A stretch of 7,077 bases of DNA from Candidatus Desantisbacteria bacterium CG1_02_49_89 (GTDB taxonomy: Bacteria; Desantisbacteria; UBA1551). Positions within the stretch are counted from its first letter, which is position 1, and each line of letters begins with the position of its first letter. The DNA is taken from the NCBI GenBank assembly GCA_001871075.1, contig MNUP01000120.1:5906-12982 (forward strand), written 5' to 3'. The translations under genes and the position numbers were made by a program. The notes under the pieces are model-generated. The model had not been told where the DNA came from, searched no databases, and saw nothing but the letters and a program-made list of their open reading frames with translations. This document shows positions 2,867-4,705 of the stretch, piece by piece.

Positions 2867-3661
2867 TTATAGGCGAACAAGACGGCGCTTGCGCGCGGAG
2901 AAGACGGCGATCTTCCTGTAGCCCACTCTCCTGATCAACGCTAAGGCTTTATCAAAGTCCCTTGCCACATCTCCCGGGGCGTGCGCGTCCGAGCCCAGGG
3001 TCACCGGAATGCCTTTTTCAAAACAGATCTTCAGCAGTTCCTCTGCCGGGTAAATTTCCTTAACAGGCCTGCGCAGGCCCGAAGTATTGATCTCCACGCA
3101 CATATCCTGCTTTTTAACCAGCCCTGCAAGCTTTTCATACAGGGCTGTCAATTTCTGCTTTGGCTTGTACCCGAACTTCTTTACAAGGTCCGCGTGGCCC
3201 ACGATGTCAAAAAGACCGGAGCTTACCATCCTGCACAGCTGGTCGAAATATTCTTCGTAGACCCGGTATACATCCCTTTTTTCCCACTCGTCCTTATGGT
3301 CAGGATGGTCGAAAACCCATTTACCTATGAAATGCGTAGAGCCGATGATGTAATCAAAGCTGTATCCTTTCAGCAGTTCCCTGGTTTGCTTTTCGATCTC
3401 GGCTGTGTATTCAACCTCTATACCGAGTTTTATCCTGATCTTTTTCTTATACGAGTTCCACAGTTCCCTTACCTTATTAATATAGGCAGGCAGGTCGTCG
3501 AAGCTCATGCTCAGATCAGGCGCAACAACATGGAAGAGCGGGAAATGGTCTGAAAACCCGATCTCGTCCATCTTTTTCGCGACCGCGGACCGCACGTATT
3601 CCTCCATTTCGCCTTCCGCGTGCCCGCACAGATCCGTATGTATGTGGTAATCTATGATCAT
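2867..3661 (-). CDS. PHP-domain phosphatase, histidinol-phosphatase (HisJ/HisK) family
   Basis: A 264-aa soluble metal-dependent phosphoesterase of the PHP fold. All expected metal ligand motifs are visible: DYHIHTD (4-10, His6 and His8), CGHA (12-15, His14), SDH (37-39), GIEVEY (80-85, Glu82), GSTH (107-110, His110), VGHADLVKKF (154-163, His156) and GSDAH (223-227, Asp225 and His227). The EINTSGLRRPVKEIYP stretch (190-205) is typical of the HisJ/HisK histidinol-phosphatase group, which converts histidinol phosphate to histidinol in histidine synthesis. No other his gene is in the window, and this family has many members of unproven substrate, so only the family is asserted. AGGTG lies 5 bases before the ATG. 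The gene ends in an arginine-rich tail (ARKRRLVRL) about five codons from the 9-bp repeats. Its upstream gap is filled by a palindromic element. Confidence 0.88.
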   Translation of the reverse strand: MIIDYHIHTDLCGHAEGEMEEYVRSAVAKKMDEIGFSDHFPLFHVVAPDLSMSFDDLPAYINKVRELWNSYKKKIRIKLGIEVEYTAEIEKQTRELLKGYSFDYIIGSTHFIGKWVFDHPDHKDEWEKRDVYRVYEEYFDQLCRMVSSGLFDIVGHADLVKKFGYKPKQKLTALYEKLAGLVKKQDMCVEINTSGLRRPVKEIYPAEELLKICFEKGIPVTLGSDAHAPGDVARDFDKALALIRRVGYRKIAVFSARKRRLVRL

Positions 3662-3677
3662 CTTTTCACCTGTTTAG

Positions 3678-3862
3678 AAAAAGGGGACCGGTGCGTCAAC
3701 TCATTAATTTGGCAGCTTTTGGATTATCGTAGGGCAAGGCTTTAGCCTTGCGTAAATTAATTCATTTATTCACCGCTGATATGTTTTGCAAACCTAAAGG
3801 TTTGCCCTACGAAAGCATAGGACTTTGCCTAATTACTGAGCTTCTTCGCCTGTCCCCTTTTT
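3678..3862. mobile_element. 185-bp palindromic REPIN/MITE-like element
   Basis: The element occupies 185 of the 202 bp between the merR-like and PHP genes. Its ends are exact inverted repeats, AAAAAGGGGAC at 3678-3688 and its complement at 3852-3862. The halves (3678-3751, and 3788-3862 read on the minus strand) align with nearly equal spacing. They share a CTCAnTAATT and GGCA block and then a GTAGGGCAA hairpin. There is no coding capacity, so if mobile it would need a transposase elsewhere. One end stops a base short of the merR stop codon, the other 16 bases from the PHP start. Confidence 0.6.
3728..3811. repeat. Inverted pair of GTAG-headed REP hairpins
   Basis: Copy one (3728-3751, plus strand) starts CGTAGG and forms GCAAGGC-TTTA-GCCTTGC. 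Copy two (3788-3811, minus strand) starts CGTAGG and forms GCAAACC-TTTA-GGTTTGC. The stems differ at two adjacent pairs, and both sides change together so that pairing is kept. A GTAG tetranucleotide before a palindrome, present as an inverted pair, is the architecture described for REP sequences of RAYT (REP-associated tyrosine) transposases. Confidence 0.72.
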
Positions 3863-3863
3863 T

Positions 3864-4214
3864 TTACTCTTTTTTCCTTACGATCTCACGCAGAGCTTCC
3901 AGCTGGTTTTTCAGTTTATTAATGGTCTCTTTATATCCGTTTTCCCTTGGGTTAACCGGTTTAGGCTCGGGTTCAAGCTTCAGTTCCTTCCTGAGCTTTG
4001 ATCTTGCGCCCGCAATGGTGTAGCCTTCATCGTAAAGGAGTTTCTTTATGCACAGGACCATCTTTACGTCTTCATTCCTGTAACGGCGCCTTCCCTTCTC
4101 CCTTTCCGGCTGCAAATGCTTGAACTCGGATTCCCAGTAACGCAGTATGTAGGATTTTATCCCGGTGAGTTTGCTCACCTCGGCGATCGTGTAAAACAAT
4201 TTTAGTTCTTCCAT
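3864..4214 (-). CDS. MerR-family transcriptional regulator without effector domain
   Basis: A 116-aa DNA-binding protein. The N-terminal winged helix-turn-helix is clear: YTIAEVSKLTGIKSYILRYWE (8-28), then the wing with GRRRYRNEDV (41-50) and the helix KMVLCIKKLLYDEGYTIAGARSKL (51-74). After a short linker rich in Pro and Glu (81-92), a helix of about 24 residues, likely a coiled coil for dimerisation, ends the protein. No ligand or metal-binding domain follows, and there is no cysteine pattern of MerR/CueR sensors. AGAGG lies 5 bases before the ATG, a good ribosome site. The HU gene is just upstream with a 68-bp spacer. In Proteobacteria a similar small MerR-like protein follows ihfA, so the pairing may be ancient. 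Targets are unknown. The dyad-symmetric repeats flanking the HU gene are candidate sites, by position only. Confidence 0.88.
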   Translation of the reverse strand: MEELKLFYTIAEVSKLTGIKSYILRYWESEFKHLQPEREKGRRRYRNEDVKMVLCIKKLLYDEGYTIAGARSKLRKELKLEPEPKPVNPRENGYKETINKLKNQLEALREIVRKKE

Positions 4215-4230
4215 ATTAACCTCTTTGTAT

Positions 4231-4284
4231 GATTACAGTGATTGTAAAATAGATTACAGTGATTATTTAAATATCACCGTAATC
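4231..4284. repeat. GATTACAGTGAT repeats, HU-merR gap
   Basis: Two direct copies (4231-4242 and 4252-4263, 21 bp apart) and one inverted copy (4273-4284, ATCACCGTAATC) lie between the HU and merR-like genes. On the minus-strand RNA the inverted pair folds into a 12-bp stem with one G-U pair, followed by TATTTT. A weak terminator for the HU transcript is therefore possible. Confidence 0.65.
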
Positions 4285-4555: not shown

Positions 4556-4567
4556 TTTTACTTCCTT

Positions 4568-4705
4568 GATTACAGTGATTTCTAACTGATGATTACGGTG
4601 ATTATCAGAAGATGATTGCAGTGATTATAAATGAGATTTCGGCGATAAAGACAATTTAAAAAATAATTTACATCGCTGTCATCGTCTTCTTAAATCGCTG
4701 CCATC
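4568..4705. repeat. GATTACAGTGAT-type repeat array upstream of the HU gene
   Basis: Four direct copies start at 4568, 4591, 4614 and 4635 (GATTACAGTGAT, GATTACGGTGAT, GATTGCAGTGAT, GATTTCGGCGAT). Two inverted copies lie at 4672-4683 and 4694-4705 (ATCGCTGTCATC, ATCGCTGCCATC). Starts within each run are 21-23 bp apart, about two helical turns. The core ATTACnGTGAT is close to dyad-symmetric, as expected of a site for a dimeric protein. Confidence 0.68.
4624..4654 (-). promoter_or_regulatory. Possible promoter for the HU gene
   Basis: On the minus strand a perfect TATAAT (4629-4624) lies about 70 bases before the HU start. TTGTCT (4654-4649) upstream matches 4 of 6 bases of a -35, but the spacer is 19 bases, longer than ideal. 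The -10 overlaps one unit of the GATTACAGTGAT-type repeat array, so a protein bound to the repeats would compete with RNA polymerase. Confidence 0.35.

Follow-up and report, generated by a model that had tools for sequence, protein, structure and literature searches.

GTAG-tagged REPs combine a GTAG head with a stem of 6-13 bp and a TY loop, and they occur in alternative complementary stem subtypes and as head-out heterodimers (Di Nocera et al., 2013; PMC3733652), all of which recur in the hairpins described here; the heads GTAGGGCA and GTAACTCA are likened to those REPs by form and not by their 24 consensus sequences. The REPINs of Pseudomonas fluorescens SBW25 also consist of two inverted REPs around a short spacer and are linked to RAYTs, but there the doublet is the functional unit and single REPs are read as defunct remnants (Bertels and Rainey, 2011; PMC3116915), whereas single hairpins dominate in the genome studied here. 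Furthermore, compensatory changes in SBW25 keep the two arms paired together (PMC3116915), whereas here pairing is kept within each arm and broken between arms. The REPs of Group 3 TnpA-REP REPtrons in S. maltophilia Sm are alike in having 23 nt, a GTAG head, and an 8-bp perfect palindrome, but their loops have 3 nt in place of the 2-nt TT or TC found here (PMC8266576). Finally, the ends of TIRYT or TIRtron elements carry the motif GGGGWSAS (PMC3733652), and a GGGGWSAS-like outer inverted repeat also surrounds the present locus, with Y1_Tnp genes bearing such ends elsewhere in the genome.

The window, by which we mean the whole stretch of 7,077 nucleotides that was analysed (C6:5906-12982), belongs to a 2.48-Mb genome assembled in 150 contigs and 93.5% complete. 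Two facing 23-nt hairpins lie in it (Table 1), and direct reading together with a repeat search, which returned inverted arms at 3727-3751 and 3788-3812 with 84% complementarity, confirmed the stems and the two paired differences set out in the preliminary description. With the base before GTAGG included, the heads read CGTAGG at 3728-3733 and, on the minus strand, at 3811-3806, followed by stems at 3734-3740/3745-3751 and 3805-3799/3794-3788 that are perfect over 7 bp around the TTTA loop or, if the closing T-A is counted, over 8 bp around a TT loop. The arms differ at two stem pairs (G-C to A-T and G-C to C-G), and pairing is intact in both. The GTAG tetranucleotide that in GTAG-type REPs, exactly or nearly, directly precedes the palindrome is present in both hairpins, the stems and loops fall within the 6-13 bp and 2-4 nt of that class, and the fold is kept across copies; the inverted arrangement with outward heads and a short spacer, of which contig C3 holds a second case, is that of a REPIN. 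No Rfam match was found in the window. Judged by its sequence, the window pair has the form of a REPIN and is built from two GTAG-type REPs. The outer repeat ends just short of the end of the MerR gene, and the whole element thus fills the intergenic gap between that gene and hisJ.

Table 1. Features in and around the hairpin pair (window coordinates).
Feature	Position	Strand	Description
Histidinol-phosphatase gene (PHP, HisJ family)	2867..3661	-	Flanks element
Outer repeat, left arm	3678..3714	+	AAAAAGGGGACCGG...; TIR-like, one mismatch to GGGGWSAS
Left flank	3717..3728	+	TTTTGGATTATC; 12 nt, one change relative to second pair at C3
Left REP	3729..3751	+	GTAGG head, stem GCAAGGC/GCCTTGC, subtype AGGC, TTTA loop
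Spacer between the two REPs	3752..3787		36 nt, AT-rich
Right REP	3788..3810	-	GTAGG head outward, stem GCAAACC/GGTTTGC, subtype AACC, TTTA loop
Outer repeat, right arm	3826..3862	-	AAAAAGGGGACAGG...; TIR-like, fits GGGGWSAS
MerR-family regulator gene	3864..4214	-	Flanks element

The pair belongs to a repeat family, as had been predicted. Copies were located by pattern search and then read from the retrieved stretches, and GTAGGGCANNNCTTNAGNNNTGC has 38 exact matches in the genome, whereas its reversed form, used as a control, has none and 58 further genomes that were sampled contain none; the copies at C17:9782 and C26:76 have the same flanks at overlapping contig ends and are probably one, leaving 37 distinct copies of this GTAGGGC family. 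A broader pattern, GTARSKCA..TGM, gave 184 matches against 0 in the control, the bulk of them from a sister family, GTAACTCA..TGA. Stems throughout the genome fall into recurrent subtypes (AGGC, AACC and AGCC), and because the GTAGGGC copies span several stem types and are nearly all perfectly paired, the selection for the fold that the preliminary description had proposed is supported. The copies are many and mainly extragenic, as in other GTAG-type REPs, with 5 of 35 lying within long ORFs (150 aa or more), although 59% of the same loci consists of such ORFs. Most are lone hairpins: close inverted pairs number two among about 37 copies, in the window and at C3:27763-27850, and a wide inverted pair, 191 nt apart, lies at C49. 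The window pair thus has the REPIN form that was claimed for GTAG-headed inverted pairs, but such pairs are the exception in a family that does not occur mostly as doublets. Since singles are read as decayed REPINs in SBW25 (PMC3116915), this shortfall bears on the state of the family more than on the form of the window pair, and since most GTAGGGC copies are single, the pair may not be the mobile unit here. The two close pairs have their REPs and the left flank TTTTRGATTATC in common, and their spacers are weakly alike.

A RAYT gene had also been predicted, and a Y1_Tnp family search of the genome returned 10 matches, to which a search with a GTAGGGC-clade RAYT as query added one match at C57 and a fragment at C49; with singles and pairs counted genome-wide as well, the window pair proved not to be the sole one, nor was the genome devoid of RAYT-type transposases. 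Two RAYTs of 160 aa each, 86% identical, lie on C23, where the one tested scored 99.7 bits against NCBIfam NF047646 (cutoff 80), with an HUH motif and REPs on both sides. Arrays of GTAACTC REPs, with almost no other hairpins, lie on either side of both genes, and by this flanking sequence the intact C23 pair belongs to the sister head GTAACTC, not to GTAGGGC. The sole RAYT sequence found beside GTAGGGC copies in this genome is a relic at C49:3228-3410, with about 60 codons of the C-terminal part (43% identity) and one in-frame TAA stop, around which inverted GTAGGGCAAGGC copies stand at C49:3156-3178 and 3370-3392. We infer that this relic was the cognate GTAGGGC REPtron, although a fragment of this length does not establish its clade, scoring best against L222, which has another head type, and about equally against C23 and members of the GTAGGGC clade. 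At 93.5% completeness, the assembly may lack an intact cognate RAYT that the organism has not lost. Two further transposase loci were observed. A RAYT that the Y1_Tnp family search missed, at C57:16602-17003, has GTAGCTGCAGGGCTTGCCCTGC hairpins on both sides and is a separate REPtron, and a Y1_Tnp gene at C111:7597-7926 is preceded by three tandem GGAAGCCTCAACTTGTTGAGGGAGATCT units and followed by four CCCCAACAAGTTGGGGCGTCCTGAAA-like ones, which are palindromic and have no GTAG head.

In other genomes, too, RAYTs lie beside the window hairpin. We retrieved 80 RAYT relatives, and most of those examined have GTAA or GTAG hairpins within 500 bp. The two closest (L214 and L215) have GTAACTC heads, as C23 does, and GTAGGGCA REPs flank the RAYT loci L219, L221, L223, L224, L228, L231, L233, L244 and L272, several of which carry the exact window 23-mer GTAGGGCAAGGCTTTAGCCTTGC. 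This 23-mer lies beside RAYTs in Planctomycetes, WOR-3, Actinomycetes, Syntrophaceae and Acidobacteria, and the RAYT genes beside GTAGGGC REPs in other genomes are longer than the C49 relic. The link to a RAYT drawn in the preliminary description therefore stands in that the same REP flanks RAYTs elsewhere, but here the GTAGGGC-flanked RAYT is only a relic and the C23 genes are of the GTAACTC type. On a tree of 36 RAYTs with 11 head labels, assigned manually from the flanks (L233 and L244, with frames too short, were left out), head type requires 10 changes, the minimum being 10, against a shuffled mean of 26.2, and 0 of 200 shuffles were as low. The tree unites its seven GTAGGGC RAYTs in a single group (83/92), with hosts from WOR-3, Actinomycetes, Planctomycetes and a deltaproteobacterium, and C23 sits with the GTAACTC RAYTs. 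Because the hosts are not grouped by phylum, RAYT and REP seem to travel together. In this tree and these flanks, REP head type follows transposase clade across phyla, and this clear pairing extends what is known of REP/RAYT systems.

We consider it very probable that the window pair is a REPIN, a non-autonomous element that formerly relied for its copying on an HUH single-strand transposase (RAYT/TnpA-REP), with the C49 remnant as its putative source. The sequence-based support shown above consists of the repeat family, the perfect stems, the extragenic bias, the match to the REPs of one RAYT clade, and the RAYT remnant between copies. Under this model, the RAYT/TnpA-REP would recognise the GTAG head and the folded hairpin on single-stranded DNA and copy the REP pair, and the C49 RAYT would have been the source of the GTAGGGC family; with that source gone, the copies would by now be relics that no longer move, or that the sister RAYT cross-mobilises at a slow rate at most. 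The genome would thus display the state of a REP family once its source transposase appears to have decayed. The find itself is confirmed as a known kind, REP/REPIN, and is ordinary apart from an unusually strict arm-mismatch rule, being selfish DNA of a described type in about 37 hairpin copies whose probable spreading transposase is only a broken remnant.

The best of the alternatives, which we nevertheless regard as rather improbable, holds that a TIRYT transposase moves the whole unit at 3678-3862 as a TIR-type element, with the REP pair as a passenger or later insertion. The outer arms do carry AAAAAGGGGACMGG, and on C100 a Y1_Tnp gene of 231 aa is flanked by inverted AAAAAGGGGACGGG ends, but the arms are just 76% complementary, no transposase lies between them, and no outer repeat surrounds the other REP pair, at C3. 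The exact end motif, moreover, occurs at the window locus only, with 14 near-matches against 10 for a control. As a single degenerate copy with one mismatched arm, the outer repeat is classed as TIR-like only. AAAAAGGGGACMGG was also considered as an abundant genome-wide family and rejected (16 matches with at most one mismatch, control 10; exact in the window pair only). It is unlikely, too, that the intact C23 RAYT mobilises GTAGGGC copies today through a specificity covering both GTAACTC and GTAGGGC heads: hybrid forms are present (GTAACGC..TGC and GTAGCTC..TGA), the two families have stem subtypes in common, and some REPtrons tolerate changes in GTAG (PMC8266576), yet the hairpins beside both C23 RAYTs are almost all of the GTAACTC type and, in the tree, head tracks RAYT clade across phyla, with C23 among the GTAACTC RAYTs. 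We give very little credence to the proposal that the pair is kept as functional operon RNA (between the MerR gene and hisJ, as a terminator or to stabilise an mRNA end) and is not a mobile-element relic, since, although it sits between two same-strand genes, each arm folds into a short hairpin, and roles of this type have been proposed for REPs (PMC3733652), no terminator-like site was detected in 3600-3900, a search for a promoter role found no support, REP copies are dispersed across the genome with differing flanks, and neither the REP pattern nor this intergenic sequence was found in one genome of the same order, G001, whose main matches cover the flanking genes only, on separate contigs.

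The disagreement between the arms follows an unusually strict rule. Each of the 16 inverted GTAACTC pairs found in this genome combines one stem type with another, the differences being confined to loop-side stem pairs 4-6, with no identical-arm pair where 4.2 would be expected (P 0.006), and beside RAYTs elsewhere the arms show at least 3 differences in 41 of 44 pairs from 22 loci, near-identical pairs numbering 3 against 11.8 expected on reassortment (P 0.0005); both P values are too small because dimer copies share descent. The window pair obeys the same rule, so that its compensatory look reflects joined subtypes, and since these subtypes recur genome-wide, its stems are two subtypes and not the outcome of local mutation. 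The compensatory change within one pair that had been proposed thus gives way to a heterodimer that joins subtypes already present; heterodimers, like alternative stems, are known among REPs (PMC3733652). With DNA parameters and 4-nt loops, the window pair folds at -13.7 as two hairpins and -11.7 as a collinear long form, and without constraint it folds into a mixed long form of -15.7, a small gain over two hairpins; identical arms would give a long form at -26.4 or -24.2 against two hairpins at -14.8 or -12.6. By this computation, arm mismatch would remove the long-palindrome preference of identical arms, about 12 kcal/mol. The short hairpin is the form that TnpA-REP enzymes recognise (PMC8266576). 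The arms may differ at loop-side stem pairs because identical arms would make one long perfect palindrome, presumably a poor single-hairpin substrate and genetically unstable, whereas with loop-side mismatch both short hairpins could still form and the long palindrome would be avoided. The result is a testable rule, that loop-side differences between the arms are required if inverted REP pairs are not to become one long palindrome, but one that is not universal, since dimers with identical arms abound in some Pseudomonas (PMC3733652).

A more novel lead came from the loops. A cassette of about 28 nt, TCGAAGAYCCGCCARTYTTTAAGGAGGG, occupies the TT/TC loops of REP hairpins that vary in head and stem, where it follows the loop dinucleotide (for example L039 after 1523, C23:3649-3675 and C117:11687-11713), and in about 27 filled hairpins the loop is replaced by roughly 30 nt of TTTCGAAGACCCGCCAATCTTTAAGGAGGG and its variants. 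Filled hairpins have GTAAC, GTAGG and GTAGC heads and many stems, with one cassette orientation relative to the head, and 36 of 83 cassette cores have perfect arms of at least 7 bp, whereas shuffling the 3' flanks gave 3 such cores on average and 10 at most. Related cores are enclosed by the arms of further hairpin repeats (TCATTGC..GCAAT and CCTCTCCC..GGGAGAGG). The cassette was found in 0 of 385 sampled genomes (386 including this one), and we found no literature report of a comparable hairpin-loop cassette; long REP loops, some common to several families, are known in GTAG-3 and GTAG-14 (PMC3733652), and insertion sequences targeting REPs are known (PMC1525189). Tentatively, and with the odds against it, we suggest that the cassette entered REP loops as a tiny element targeting single-stranded hairpin loops and not a sequence; alternatively, already filled hairpins may have spread. 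The cassette might bring to light a mechanism for DNA insertion into hairpin loops.

Other small repeats were observed. A 56-57 nt form of the cassette with a further hairpin of its own (CCCGCCAAACTGACTGGCGGG), so that one repeat is nested in another within a REP loop, occurs at L038, L076, L159, L197 and L023. The perfect hairpin TCATTGCGACCCGCCAATATTCGTGGCGGGGAAGCAATC lies between the arms of the TCATTGC..GCAATC repeat in many copies (L145, L152, L156, L157, L160, L161, L166 and L167). The window itself contains the hairpins TTGTCCCGAAGGGACA and TTGTCCCAAAGGGATCCCTTTGGGATAA at 1320-1345 and 2700-2730, which probably represent another short hairpin repeat family, since a similar TTGTCCCAAAGGGAC lies beside a REP elsewhere (L024 flank), and loosely repeated words (AATTATGAATTATGAG; GTTTACAGAGTTTA; GATTACAGTGATT) recur in its intergenic stretches at 1281-1315, 2640-2700, 4230-4265 and 4565-4640.
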